Positions 11,134 to 46,108 of a DNA stretch of 59,725 bases are shown piece by piece; the stretch's first letter is position 1, and the number at the start of each line of letters is the position of its first letter. Below the pieces are notes generated by a model. That model was given only the letters and a program-made list of their open reading frames with translations, was not told the origin of the DNA and did no database searches. Both the position numbers and the translations under genes were made by a program. Source of the DNA: Bacteroidales bacterium (GTDB taxonomy: Bacteria; Bacteroidota; Bacteroidia; Bacteroidales; P3); assembly GCA_024400415.1 (NCBI GenBank), contig JAKSMS010000004.1, positions 1-59,725 of the forward strand, written 5' to 3'.

Positions 11134-11226
11134 TCATATACGCATTCGGTTCATCAGGTGTTTTTTCTTTTCACACCGAATCGACCGAATGAACCGAATC
11201 CTGCCGGAGTAGAGATGGCGGGTTTA
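11134..11226. other. Intergenic stretch with an ATTCGGT-type inverted repeat
   Basis: Between the DUF2442 gene and the first cassette tail. Bases 11157-11201 contain the reverse complement of the ATTCGGT-rich motif found at 15833-15879 and 16550-16587. The segment is also internally palindromic (ATTCGGTTCA near 11144, TGAACCGAAT near 11190). No coding signal. Confidence 0.6.
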
Positions 11227-11320
11227 GACAAAAACCGTAATCCACCCCAAGTAATGTATTAATGTTTTGATGTGTAAATGTGTAGAGTGACCTAGGTTTT
11301 TTTGCCGGTTTTTGTTTGAC
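11227..11320. mobile_element. Minimal cassette: two inverted tails, no hairpins
   Basis: Begins GACAAAAACCGTAATCCACC (11227) and ends TTGCCGGTTTTTGTTTGAC (11302-11320), the same left and right tails that bound the hairpin cassettes at 12801 and 13404. Only about 50 bp of AT-rich DNA lies between. It abuts the stop codon of the AAA ATPase gene. Confidence 0.6.
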
Positions 11321-12576
11321 TAAGAATCTTCCTGCCACTTATTGAAAGCCCGTACTTGTATGGTGTTACCTTTGTACACGATAGTGTCCTCTTTATCGAA
11401 AGTGATCAGCAAAAGATTATCACAATGCAATTCCTCCGCACATTCCACCAGTGCGGAGAGCTCGCGCTTGAGAGTCCGCTCGTTGCTTATATCGTATGAT
11501 ACTTGGATAAGCTGCTCTACATGAGTCCCTTTCCGGGTGACGAAATCCACCTCCTTATCATTACGTGAACGATAATAGAAGAGCGACTTCTCCTCGTCAT
11601 AGCCTCGGCGGCGCAGTTCCAGGAAGACATCATTTTCGAGCAGACGGCCGAGATTCTCGCTGAGATTGAATCCTGCACCCAGGACAAAGCCATTGTCCAC
11701 CACATACACTTTTCGCGGAGCCTTCAGCATGACCTTCAGCTTGTTATTGTATCGTGGCAGATAATAGAACAGGTAAGGCTCGTGCAGATAGCCACAGAAC
11801 TTCTTGACCGTATTCTCACTATTCATACCCAGATCTTCGCTCAGAGACAAGGTGGTAAACGGATTGCAGAAGTTGGAAAGCAAGTAGTTGGCGAGGTTAA
11901 ACAGTTCTGTCACCTTGCGTATCCTATGGCGCTGAGCCACATCCTTCGTAATGATCGATGTGAATAGCGTCTGCAGATAGTTCCCCGTCATCTGGCGGGC
12001 CTGCAGTGTCTCTGGATAGCCTCCCAGGCGAAGATACTCCTCATAGATGATCCTTGCCTTAGCCTCCTGCTCCGGCTGAATATCCTGAGCCGAAATCCCA
12101 GAATAGCTGAGTGTTTCAGACAAGCCGAACGGCAGCATCTCAATCTCCACATATCGCCCTGTCAGCACCGTGGCCATTTCGCTGCTCAACATCTTGGCAT
12201 TACTACCCGTAATGATCAGGTTGACGCCACGGCGATACAGCTTTGCGACCCACAAATCCCAGCCTTCGAGATTCTGCACCTCATCGAGCAACAGGTACTG
12301 ATAGGATGGATATACACTGTCAAGAGCCGACATCACAAGATCTTCATTCCAAAGAGAAAGCAGCTTGGGATCATCAAAATTAAGATATGCAAAACTATGG
12401 CCCCTCAGCATCATGAGCGCAAAGATGGACTTGCCGGCTCGCCGAGGACCCGTGATCAGCTTGATCTGCGGATTCTGCAAAAGAAGTGGAATGTCATAGC
12501 GCGATTGCCTGCGGATGTAGGGCAGAGATAGGAGCTGTTCGCATTCCTGACGTTGTTGCTTGATGGTCGTGAGCAT
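11320..12576 (-). CDS. AAA ATPase of the DUF4143 type
   Basis: 418 aa. The N-terminal AAA domain has Walker A GPRRAGKS (about 45-52), Walker B YLLLDEVQNLEGW and a sensor-like LIITGSNAKMLSSEMATVLTGR. The C-terminal half resembles DUF4143, with an EVDFVTRKG motif reminiscent of restriction-like nucleases (EKSLFYYRSRNDKEVDFVT). Such ATPases are scattered, frequently duplicated accessory genes of uncertain role. The ATG at 12576 is chosen because the promoter -7 element lies at 12603-12610, which excludes the upstream codon at 12615. It is flanked on both sides by the right-hand tail of the hairpin cassettes (11302 and 12753), so it may have travelled as cargo; that is inference. Confidence 0.8.
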   Translation of the reverse strand: MLTTIKQQRQECEQLLSLPYIRRQSRYDIPLLLQNPQIKLITGPRRAGKSIFALMMLRGHSFAYLNFDDPKLLSLWNEDLVMSALDSVYPSYQYLLLDEVQNLEGWDLWVAKLYRRGVNLIITGSNAKMLSSEMATVLTGRYVEIEMLPFGLSETLSYSGISAQDIQPEQEAKARIIYEEYLRLGGYPETLQARQMTGNYLQTLFTSIITKDVAQRHRIRKVTELFNLANYLLSNFCNPFTTLSLSEDLGMNSENTVKKFCGYLHEPYLFYYLPRYNNKLKVMLKAPRKVYVVDNGFVLGAGFNLSENLGRLLENDVFLELRRRGYDEEKSLFYYRSRNDKEVDFVTRKGTHVEQLIQVSYDISNERTLKRELSALVECAEELHCDNLLLITFDKEDTIVYKGNTIQVRAFNKWQEDS

Positions 12577-12602
12577 AGTCTGTATTGATATAAATGACGG
12601 TG

Positions 12603-12634
12603 CAAAGTTACACAATTTTTCTCAAATAGACAAG
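12603..12634 (-). promoter_or_regulatory. Promoter of the AAA ATPase gene
   Basis: On the minus strand, CTTG at 12634-12631 and TAACTTTG at 12610-12603, 20 nt apart. The predicted leader is under 20 nt. Confidence 0.65.
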
Positions 12635-12752
12635 CGTACTGCGGAAAAAAGTACAAAATATCCGCACTACAACGTTAAAAGTGCGCATTTTTGCTGGTAA
12701 AAGACAAATAGAATTCCCCCGCGCTTTCACTTTCAGATTGCGCAGGTTTTTT

Positions 12753-12771
12753 GCCGGTTTTTGTTTACAGT
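12753..12771. repeat. Solo right-hand cassette tail
   Basis: GCCGGTTTTTGTTTAC plus the spacer agtagaaacatgaattatc, identical to the junction at 13356-13400 between the two cassettes. Together with the left tail at 11227 it brackets the AAA ATPase gene. Confidence 0.6.
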
Positions 12772-12800
12772 AGAAACATGAATTATCACGAACAAGTTTT

Positions 12801-13371
12801 GACAAAAACCGTAATCCACCCCTTGGGATTGATGCAGATGCCTCTGTCGAGCCATCGATGGTGCAGCCGCCTGAAAATCCTTAAGCAAGCTTAGATATTT
12901 TCATCCGCCTGCCCCATCACCCTATCGGGTCTGCATCATTCCCAAGGCGATAAACAGAAATAAACCTTTCGTCTGTACATTGTGACCAATAGTCGTGTTG
13001 GAGCAAATGTTTATTATAGGTTACCTCTAAAAATTGCTTTCAGGAGATTTCTGTTCTATTTGAGATAGATTCAGCTGATGAGCGAAGGCGCATAGCGGGC
13101 TATGCAACTGAGTGAAACAGTTGAAGATATCCAAATAGGGCAGAAATATCGAAAAGTTTTTTTTAATTCCATTTTTCATGTAAAACGGGAATTTTTAGAG
13201 GTTACCTATAGTTTATCGCCTTGGATAGGATGACGGTTTTCCAAAGGAAAGTGATGGCATGGGTGCGAGAATTTGTCTGAATGCCAGCATTCTAGGAAAT
13301 TCTTGTGCTCATGGCATCAGGTGGTGCAAACCACCATCCTATCCAAGGGGTTTGTGCCGGTTTTTGTTTAC
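12801..13371. mobile_element. Hairpin cassette 1 (no gene, MITE inside)
   Basis: A 571-bp unit from GACAAAAACCG (12801) to CGGTTTTTGTTTAC (13371), whose ends are inverted repeats continuing into CCACCCCTTGG / CCAAGGGGTTT. A long hairpin stands at each end: left 12821-12947 (CCTTGGGATTGATGCAG paired with CTGCATCATTCCCAAGG) and right 13219-13348 (CCTTGGATAGGATG paired with CATCCTATCCAAGG, with nested arms GATGGCATG and CATGGCATC). Without the MITE only about 80 bp lies between the hairpins, and it contains a remnant matching the 3' end of the GxxExxY gene of cassette 2. This is cassette 2 with its cargo deleted. Confidence 0.75.
13019..13206. mobile_element. 188-bp MITE with TATA target duplication
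   Basis: Ends GGTTACCTCTAAAAATT and AATTTTTAGAGGTTACC form a 17-bp inverted repeat with one central mismatch, flanked on both sides by TATA (13015-13018 and 13207-13210). The interior is itself a long imperfect hairpin (TTTCTGTTCTATTTG...CAAATAGGGCAGAAA). There is no ORF. The matching position of cassette 2 (14080-14105) lacks it, showing the empty site. Confidence 0.8.
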
Positions 13372-13403
13372 AGTAGAAACATGAATTATCACGAACAAGT
13401 TTT

Positions 13404-14260
13404 GACAAAAACCGTAATCCACCCCTTGGGATTGATGCAGATGCCTCTGTCGAGCCATCGATGGTGCAGCCGCCTGAAAATCCTTAAGCAAGCTTAGATA
13501 TTTTCATCCGCCTGCCCCATCACCCTATCGGGTCTGCATCATTCCCAAGGCGATAAACCGAAATAAACATTCGTCAGAACATGTACATTGTGTCGGTGTC
13601 TGTGTCGAGATAGTAATGCTCGCTCTGATCTCGCATTGGTGCAAAATTCCATAGGACGCCTATGCGGGTTTTGGTGAGTCGCATGTAGTTCCATAGTTGT
13701 TGCCTATGGTCTGGACATAGAGACTCCACAGCCTTGCACTCAACGAATGCCTTTTCCTTCACATAGAAGTCAACATAGTGTTTATGATTTATCCGCTTGC
13801 CATGGAACTCAACCGAGAAGTAGTACTCACGAGCAAACGGCTTGATATTGCGTTCTTCTAGAACAATCTCCAACGCATCCTGATACATGTATTCATTGAG
13901 GAATGGACCTAATTCCCTGTGAACTTCCTGGCAGCAGCCGTTTAGTTCATAACACCATTGCTTCAGTTTCTGGCATAGGTCAGGATCTCTATCTGCCAAC
14001 CTTTCGATCTTATGGTTTCTCATTTTCTTGCAAGCACTACTTTTCTACACAAACGCACTCTCCAATGAATTATTGCGACGGAGGAATGGTTTATTTTGGT
14101 TTATCGCCTTGGATAGGATGACGACTTTCCTAAGGAAAGTGATGGCATGGGTGCAAGAATTTGTCTGAATGCCCGCATTCAAGGAAATTCTTGTGCTCAT
14201 GGCATCAGGTGGTGCAAACCACCATCCTATACAAGGGGTTTATGCCCGGTTTTTGTTTAC
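13404..14260. mobile_element. Hairpin cassette 2 carrying a GxxExxY gene
   Basis: An 857-bp unit with the same tails as cassette 1: left GACAAAAACCG at 13404, right CGGTTTTTGTTTAC ending at 14260. Left hairpin 13424-13550 and right hairpin 14107-14236 are nearly identical to those of cassette 1. Between them lies one gene on the minus strand (13574-14023). It begins 34 bp after cassette 1, separated by the same spacer seen before cassette 1. Confidence 0.75.
13574..14023 (-). CDS. GxxExxY family PD-(D/E)XK nuclease-like protein
   Basis: 149 aa of the GxxExxY (PDDEXK_3) family. The family motif region is HRELGPFLNEYMYQDALEIVL (E44, Y47). The PD-(D/E)XK core is visible as D85 in HYVDFYV and E95-x-K97 in AFVECKAVESL, followed by the conserved QLWNYMRLTKTRIGVLWNF helix and strand. 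Residues needed for metal-dependent nuclease activity are thus present, though activity is unproven for most of the family. The first glycine of the motif is shifted relative to the usual GxxExxY spacing, and the N-terminus carries about 25 extra residues. It is the only gene within hairpin cassette 2 and reads from the right hairpin towards the left. Confidence 0.8.
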   Translation of the reverse strand: MRNHKIERLADRDPDLCQKLKQWCYELNGCCQEVHRELGPFLNEYMYQDALEIVLEERNIKPFAREYYFSVEFHGKRINHKHYVDFYVKEKAFVECKAVESLCPDHRQQLWNYMRLTKTRIGVLWNFAPMRDQSEHYYLDTDTDTMYMF

Positions 14261-14409: not shown

Positions 14410-14487
14410 TTACCGCCAGGTTACCGCCATTTTCGCCAAGTTACCGCCAAATTACCGCCAAATTTGGAGAGTTTTTTGGCGGCAACT
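14410..14487. repeat. TTACCGCCA short repeats with an inverted copy
   Basis: TTACCGCCA occurs at 14410, 14420, 14441 and 14452 with a divergent TTTCGCCAA at 14431, i.e. every 10-11 bp. Inverted forms TTGGCGGC and CTTGGCGA follow at 14476-14492. Helical-phase spacing is typical of protein-binding iterons, but no binding protein is encoded nearby. Confidence 0.6.
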
Positions 14488-14552
14488 TGGCGAGACAAAT
14501 ACCCAACTTACTGAATATCAAATTACTTTACCAAATTAACCAAAATTATGGC

Positions 14553-14899
14553 AAAAATTGCTCCAGAAATGGTGTGTTAGTGGCTGCGCCACATGGGTTG
14601 ATGGGTTAGTGGCTGCGCCATATGTGTTGATGTGTCCAAAATCGCACTCTTGACAACTATCTGAACTTATTTTTGCGTCAAGAAATACTAAGCCGCAGAA
14701 GTAGAGGTACTTACACAAAAAAAGTAGCCTTCATTAACGAAAAGTTAACGAAAAATTTAGGTTATTTTTTTCGTTAACTTTTCGTCAACTTTTCGTTAAC
14801 TACATCCAACAGTCTGATAATCAAATTTAAGGCAAAAATTGCACCAGAAATGGTGTGTTAGTGGCTGCGCCACATGGGTTGATGGGTTGATGTGTTTGG
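14553..14899. repeat. Pair of about 65-bp direct repeats round a TTAACG palindrome
   Basis: GTGTGTTAGTGGCTGCGCC and its flanks occur at about 14553-14620 and 14831-14895. Between them, 14733-14800 is an inverted repeat built from GTTAACGAAAAG units on one side and CTTTTCGTTAAC units on the other. Heptamers of the TTGAACC type follow at 14920-14985. No coding signal in this stretch. Confidence 0.6.
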
Positions 14900-29899: not shown

Positions 29900-29968
29900 A
29901 AAAATGCAGTCTCACCTCCAGATTGCCTAATAATCGGCAACTTTTGCCTACCTCTGGCATAATGGCAG

Positions 29969-30067
29969 CATATGTGCTATATATGTGCTATATATGTGCT
30001 ATATTTCTGCTATCTCTATAGCATAGGACATATATAGCACATATATAGCACAAATATAGCACATATG
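29969..30067. repeat. AT-rich palindromic element, copy 1
   Basis: A 99-bp near-perfect palindrome: three CATATGTGCTATATATGTGC-type units on the left and ATATAGCACATATATAGCAC on the right, round an asymmetric core containing CTGCTATCTCTATAG. The core is the reverse complement of the core of copy 2 at 45930. It lies between the stop of the minus-strand helicase gene and the promoter at 29868; nothing else is visible in this 321-bp gap. Confidence 0.85.
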
Positions 30068-45931: not shown

Positions 45932-46039
45932 TATGTGCTATATATGTGCTATATATGTGCTATATATGTGCTATATATGTCCTATTCTATAGAGATAGCA
46001 GATATATAGCACATATATAGCACATATATAGCACATATA
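45930..46039. repeat. AT-rich palindromic element, copy 2
   Basis: About 110 bp. Four TATATGTGCTA units are followed by a core with CCTATTCTATAGAGATAGCAG, then three or more TATATAGCACA units. The core is the reverse complement of copy 1 (29969-30067) with two mismatches. Confidence 0.85.
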
Positions 46040-46108
46040 ACAGCAATTATCTAGAGATAAACAGGTTATAAGGCTGAATCATTTCTGCCCACACCAAGCC
46101 TTGCAACA

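Follow-up and report, generated by a model that had tools for sequence, protein, structure and literature searches.

What is the array of inverted tails and long hairpins at positions 11227 to 14260 of a 59,725-nucleotide stretch of Bacteroidales DNA (GenBank assembly GCA_024400415.1, contig JAKSMS010000004.1; the whole stretch is called the window hereafter), and what role does the small GxxExxY nuclease gene inside it play? A sequence-only reading regarded the array as mobile cassettes in which hairpin ends and nuclease gene travel together. The explanation tentatively favoured here is that of a REPtron-like miniature element, in which a PD-(D/E)XK nuclease replaces the Y1 transposase and the ends act as a folded single strand. 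The question extends beyond this locus, GxxExxY genes being present in roughly half of the sampled genomes of the window's order, without an assigned role in the family models encountered. The elements represent a further class of miniature mobile DNA, one in which what is conserved at the ends is a cloverleaf fold of a single strand, and if the explanation is true, a PD-(D/E)XK nuclease can stand where repetitive extragenic palindrome (REP) systems use a tyrosine transposase. The units occur in several gut bacteria, and the nuclease that some copies carry between their cloverleaf ends suggests that this common family might act on folded repeats of DNA.

The source is a metagenome-assembled genome (MAG, designated G000) of 1.84 Mb and 81% completeness, of which the window is contig 34. 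Two tandem units occupy positions 12800-13371 (unit 1) and 13403-14260 (unit 2), each with inverted cloverleaf ends of about 160 nt. The features of the array are given below; R1 is a covariance model constructed from 11 ends, the four of the window included, and z compares a fold with those of shuffled sequences.

11222-11319, no strand: hairpin-less remnant consisting only of a left tail (11227-11248) and a right tail (11291-11319); repeat families D5 and D7
12740-12768, plus strand: isolated right tail upstream of an ATPase gene, followed by a 32-nt spacer (12769-12800)
12800-12959, minus strand (the outward strand): left end of unit 1, with tail 12801-12822, cloverleaf hairpin 12821-12947 and inner foot GGCGATAAAC; R1 157.2 bits, z -5.77
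13019-13206, no strand: unrelated miniature inverted-repeat transposable element (MITE) inside unit 1, with inverted ends GGTTACCTCTAAAAATT; 99% copies on contigs C63 and C6
13207-13371, plus strand: right end of unit 1, with inner foot, hairpin 13219-13348 and tail to 13371; R1 141 bits, z -8.55
13372-13403, no strand: 32-nt spacer with the same sequence as the one preceding unit 1, by tandem duplication
13403-13562, minus strand: left end of unit 2, with tail 13404-13425, hairpin 13424-13550 and inner foot; R1 156.8 bits, z -5.77
13574-14023, minus strand: GxxExxY / PDDEXK_3 nuclease gene (149 aa; PF13366 and TIGR04256 matches), the sole gene of unit 2
14095-14260, plus strand: right end of unit 2, with inner foot, hairpin 14107-14236 and tail to 14260; R1 144.1 bits, z -9.28

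The tails lie where the sequence-only reading had placed them. Three left tails, at 11227, 12801 and 13404, are 22-mers without mismatch (mean expectation 0.00 in 100 shuffles), and the right tails are exact at 12753 and 13356, with one mismatch at 14245 and two at 11304 (0.40 expected). The spacers between cassettes are identical, as had been noted, because a 224-nt segment comprising left ends and spacer has been duplicated in tandem (12745-12968 and 13348-13571, 98% identity); the right ends of units 1 and 2 are 91% identical. Cassette 1 had been described as the same unit with the gene deleted, and this holds in part. Its interior contains an apparent remnant of the 3' end of the nuclease gene (local alignment score 53 against a 200-shuffle maximum of 35, about 16 nt of the alignment stemming from the inner foot of the end itself), and the gene has likely been reduced to this remnant. 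However, the interior is not simply empty, since a MITE of about 190 bp has been inserted. The array would have formed by local duplication of one unit, with subsequent gene loss and MITE insertion in unit 1.

Do the ends behave as folds? The four hairpins, which lie just inside the tails and are inverted between left and right as first described, fold far better than shuffled sequences and adopt a branched cloverleaf form rather than that of a plain hairpin. Each is located between two similar feet, the inner one being GGTTTATnnnGGTTTATCGCC in its fullest form and the outer one, the tail, GGTTTATnnnGGTTTTTGTC, with variation. Left and right hairpin types share a common alignment and fold in which 93.6% of cells are paired. 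Moreover, 28 of 43 pairs have changed on both sides while pairing was kept, and the covariation score is 0.524 versus 0.208 in shuffles. On four of five pairing measures none of 500 shuffles reached the observed value; on the fifth, which counts further pair types, 25 of them did.

The folding check suggested by the sequence-only reading favoured the outward-read strand in all 48 chosen ends. In a first set of 28 ends this strand always folds more stably than its complement, as it does in all 20 ends of a second set; among the 16 model matches left over, the same holds for 15, the exception being L329. Of the chosen ends, 47 of the 48 are distinct (L326 and L327 are near-duplicates) and the orientation of L201 comes from the model alone. 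G-U pairs on the outward strand and its complement number 142 versus 25 (28 ends) and 97 versus 20 (20 ends) with RNA parameters, and 67 versus 8 and 35 versus 5 with DNA parameters. Because the outward strand is favoured at both inverted ends, the fold of the left end and that of the right end of an element lie on opposite strands. It is this strand preference that makes each end seem to act as a folded single strand, be it DNA or RNA.

The same bias raises the possibility that the ends function as RNA, transcribed outward, with the cloverleaf serving as a small RNA or as a processing or termination structure and the copies spreading by ordinary recombination. The abundance of G-U pairs (142 of 1494 with RNA parameters) is in keeping with this, as is the motif GCTTGC, which we take to be a CUUG tetraloop form and which occurs on the outward strand of 32 of 48 ends, GCAAGC occurring in 0 of 48. 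Yet the copies are paired and inverted, their outer tails are conserved and some remnants consist of tails without a hairpin, features that resemble those of mobile ends rather than genes; Rfam 15 gave only three sub-threshold matches (two microRNA, one long non-coding RNA) and none at the gathering score in 7 loci. An RNA role of this kind thus appears improbable.

Local duplication alone, to which ends confined to this locus would have pointed, is rejected in view of ends in other genomes (G062, G087 and G578-G580, with lower-scoring ends in G432 and G398), even though the window array itself is partly a tandem duplication. R1 matched 8 rows in G000, 15 in G062, 4 in G432, 6 in G398, 17 in G578, 15 in G579 and 12 in G580, these seven genomes having been picked because they had hits and some rows representing the complementary strand of one hairpin. 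In six of the seven the matches are spread over at least two contigs; those of G000 are all within the window array. A DNA search with the left end among 120 genomes of the genus added only G062, where matches form an inverted pair separated by 2.8 kb, and a search of the same set with the right end identified no genome other than G000. The inner-foot pattern was found in G000 and G062 only among 190 genomes of the family; the genus DNA and family pattern searches missed G087, an actual carrier. In G062 the elements are gene-less, measure 403-461 bp, occur both clustered and singly and have the layout seen in the window. Similarity between the copies of G578 starts and stops within a few nucleotides of the tails.

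Broader pattern scans returned at least 118 loci in the genome_contigs set and 43 in the viral_contigs set. Of 161 loci, 158 were testable and, among the matches listed, three were true, all from genome_contigs: L096 (Paludibacteraceae MAG, horse faeces), L117 (Bacteroidaceae MAG, horse faeces) and L144 (Bacteroidales MAG). An order-wide search with R1 found matches in 3 of 393 genomes with 7 candidates scored per genome, and in 1 of 41 with 71 per genome. A viral origin of the ends was rejected, since pattern scans of viral contigs, one with 43 and one with 34 loci, yielded no credible element, and a blastn search of the left end against plasmids and phages gave no match. The hairpins of G398 have no tails and share only the core fold with the others. 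One of these tail-less cloverleafs (L337, L338, L201, L205) lies just downstream of a RecA-like open reading frame (ORF), with a second 7 kb away past phage-like ORFs; others are near contig ends beside a shared leader (ORFs assigned by eye).

What gene do the ends carry? That cassette 2 holds a single GxxExxY nuclease-like gene is borne out by matches to PF13366 (99.9 bits, cut-off 22, E 1.5e-28) and TIGR04256 (94.7 bits, cut-off 35, E 4.7e-27), which make the protein a clear member of a family whose models give no function. D85, E95 and K97, the D...E-x-K of PD-(D/E)XK enzymes, are invariant in 35 aligned sequences. At L117, in G579, a gene encoding a protein 86% identical lies between inverted ends of the window type. 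These two genes show 95 nucleotide differences, 69 of them at third codon positions, with a dN of 0.08 against a dS of about 2.2 by YN00 (not computable by NG86), and the gene is therefore kept by purifying selection. At L340, in G087, a relative with 59% identity lies exactly between two outward R1 matches (E 1e-9 and 4e-6), the letters of its hairpins being wholly different from those of the window. The three closest nucleases (100, 86 and 59% identity) are thus all located between inverted ends. In G578, a cloverleaf missed by R1 adjoins a GxxExxY gene (L352, 1292-1452; seen by eye, then folded).

T7 endonuclease I is a nuclease of cruciforms and Holliday junctions. It ranked first when the GxxExxY profile was compared with solved structures and, like the present protein, is a PD-(D/E)XK enzyme, with a weak profile match over the catalytic D..ExK stretch. 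However, this match is not significant (E 0.026 and 0.082 in the profile comparison; 0.026-0.11 for the two best entries) and became no stronger with 35 sequences, so that it is retained as a lead and homology was rejected. A role as a defence gene was likewise set aside, as PADLOC gave no match for the nuclease.

The arrangement invites comparison with known systems. REPINs are inverted pairs of hairpins dispersed as miniature units (PMC3116915), while REPtrons consist of a dedicated gene flanked by hairpins and TIRtrons of a single gene between long inverted repeats, which in some species form repeat families (PMC3733652). The present elements resemble REPINs and REPtrons in their inverted hairpin pairs, their dispersal as miniature units, their clusters and the hairpin-flanked gene of some copies; inverted doublets are dispersed in six genomes, G000 having only the window array. 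They differ in that their ends are cloverleafs of about 130 nt, whereas REP stems measure 20-40 bp (PMC3733652), in that alignments of the ends contain no conserved GTAG column by eye, the feet being GTTTATCGCC and GGTTTTTGTC, and in that the gene encodes a PD-(D/E)XK nuclease rather than the Y1 transposase of REPtrons. The likeness to TIRtrons and TIRYTs, a single gene between long inverted repeats with repeat families in some species (PMC3733652), is accompanied by an unrelated enzyme and by ends conserved here as one-strand folds. Among the open-licence papers searched, neither a link between GxxExxY and palindromic repeats nor a description of the element was found, and a passage naming GxxExxY in PMC8934634 is unrelated to these elements; the proposal that the element is undescribed holds for that literature only.

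Under the favoured explanation, the window element would be a copy of a Bacteroidales family of miniature mobile elements, bounded by two inverted ends of about 160 nt, each composed of inner foot, cloverleaf hairpin and outer foot or tail. Each end appears to be recognised as a folded single strand, the outward-read one, as shown by the conserved pairing, strand bias, conserved feet and dispersal. Movement would most likely involve single-stranded or cruciform DNA cut and rejoined at the feet with no target-site duplication, as proposed for REPs and REPINs. A minority of copies carry the GxxExxY PD-(D/E)XK nuclease gene, just as REPtrons carry that of the REP-associated tyrosine transposase (RAYT). 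The nuclease would most likely bind or cut the folded end or its cruciform, both in cis and in trans, and by analogy could be the partner enzyme acting on the ends, as RAYT is for REPs.

Which enzyme moves the units? In line with the remark of the sequence-only reading, no transposase or recombinase was seen when the ORFs of these units were inspected by eye, no family search having been aimed at the interiors. It is possible, if less probable than the favoured explanation, that these are non-autonomous elements moved in trans by another enzyme, such as a Y1/HUH transposase or a recombinase acting on single-stranded DNA, with the GxxExxY gene as cargo. The many copies in genomes without a close nuclease and the gene-less state of most complete units would fit such a scheme, and strand-specific folded ends together with the absence of target duplication at the tails fit single-stranded DNA transposition. 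However, Y1_Tnp (PF01797) had no match in G000, G062 or G398, all incomplete MAGs, and no R1 end accompanies the three Y1 loci of G432 and G509 over the stretches compared; RAYT acting in trans is accordingly unsupported. Moreover, in three genomes it is this gene family that the ends enclose, and the tailed pairs read contained no other visible gene, although the tail-less pair of G398, 7.3 kb apart, does enclose phage-like genes. Integron cassettes are gene cassettes with folded one-strand recombination sites, the attC hairpins. They share these features with the present units, which differ in having two inverted ends each, where an integron cassette has one attC in a single orientation, and in the lack of an integrase in the units read.

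The short gene-less copies, their inverted ends and their dispersal could also describe MITEs of a classical DDE transposon, the long terminal inverted repeats of which fold by chance. An 11-nt direct repeat outside the tails at L333/L144 and the sequence shared past the tail by copies in G580 and G579 point in that direction. Against this, the tails of 14 units show no target duplication (mean shared word 4.57 versus 4.39 for shuffled partners; 59/200), an element may have unlike hairpins at its left and right ends, and the hairpins preserve their pairing through sequence change, on one strand, something that a transposase binding double-stranded DNA does not need. A DDE origin seems very unlikely.

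Several observations weigh against the explanation favoured here. Among the 14 complete units, 3 carry the nuclease gene and 11, of about 250-535 bp, do not, and G062 (15 R1 rows, 71% complete) has no GxxExxY match at E 0.001; the nuclease is hence not needed in cis and may be a passenger. The claim that hairpin ends and nuclease gene travel together is supported in so far as the two occur together in the window, G579 and G087. The best nucleases of G578 and G580 have only 37% and 38% identity, with no close relative in either genome. Among 47 GxxExxY loci below 59% identity (29 order-wide, 10 from the genus and 8 from the chosen genomes, with flanks of at most 1.5 kb), R1 ends lie beside one only, L357 in G432. 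There the gene has a hairpin on either side, both in the same orientation; the other GxxExxY gene of that genome has hairpins about 2.1 kb away. The extent of the unit is also in question. The shared stretch exceeds one tail by about 60 nt in G580 and about 29 nt in G579, and the direct repeat at L333/L144 lies beyond a second inverted repeat outside the tails; in these three cases the unit may extend beyond its tails and may have a target duplication further out. Of the target duplications and empty sites that the sequence-only reading proposed to look for, the 14 units show none of the former at their tails, and no empty site or transposition event was seen. An AlphaFold model of the nuclease from 3 sequences was too poor for fold comparison (pLDDT 43.7).

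Are GxxExxY genes flanked by hairpins in general, as had been suggested? A GxxExxY match at E 0.001 is present in 210 of 393 genomes of the order, and the loci compared are 29 of many order matches, along with 11 in the genus besides the window. A long palindrome occurs within 300 nt of 11 of the 29 order-wide loci (8 upstream, 8 downstream, 5 on both sides), a count that keeps three loci with a broken or cut frame (L248, L249, L257). Control ORFs from the same genomes (at least 100 aa, within the first 20 kb of contig 1, intergenic length unmatched) have one in 23 of 320 cases and never on both sides (0/320; Fisher p 1.5e-5, and 2.8e-6 for both sides), and 110 control ORFs of 100-250 aa have one in 4 cases and on both sides in 0. 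The rule is independent of sequence and detects 10 of 17 known cloverleaf ends, neither end of L340 among them, so that these rates are lower bounds. At L241, L247 and L262 the palindrome on one side of the gene nearly repeats that on the other. Raw hairpin energies follow G+C content. A comparison of near and far z-scores (25 versus 7 of 41 loci at z <= -4; 7 too short) mixes intergenic with coding DNA and was not relied on.

The association is thus significant in the order-wide set, yet appears partial. The further sets were mostly negative (genus 1/10, the same chosen genomes 0/8, viral 1/1, plasmid 0/4), most palindromes next to distant GxxExxY genes are plain hairpins with no steady strand bias, and no second palindrome copy was present in the sampled stretches (20 kb at most) of those genomes; these points, too, count against the favoured explanation. 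The wider idea, that GxxExxY proteins are nucleases dedicated to palindromic repeat families and recognise strand-specific folded or cruciform DNA, as a second, PD-(D/E)XK-based counterpart to RAYT, with the window element and its cloverleaf ends as the most elaborate form, is conceivable but rather doubtful. The partial link nevertheless offers a testable function, structure-specific cutting of repeat hairpins. In G265 (L389, L390), an array of 79-bp palindromic repeats of the CACGAATT type lies directly downstream of a GxxExxY gene. The two GxxExxY copies of that genome were rejected as proof of mobility, as they represent one 10-kb region assembled twice, with a different copy number of the 79-bp repeat.

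Tails of the element also occur beside a second gene of the window. An AAA_14-DUF4143 ATPase gene (11320-12615, minus strand) matches the candidate defence family PDC-S01 strongly (E 1.1e-105). The tail at 12753 is upstream of it and the 93-nt remnant bounded by the tails at 11227 and 11304 adjoins its stop, so that tail remnants bracket this gene. The MITE at 13019-13206 (L003, L004, L007) has partial matches on further contigs of the same MAG besides C6 and C63, and perhaps short TA-rich target duplications. To the right of unit 2, positions 14410-14890 contain clustered short palindromes and direct repeats (TTACCGCCA units, a TTAACGAAAAGTTAACG palindrome and a 71-nt direct repeat at 94%). 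Two more long palindromes are present in the window, at 29968-30057 and 45949-46042 (20/20 complementary arm positions).

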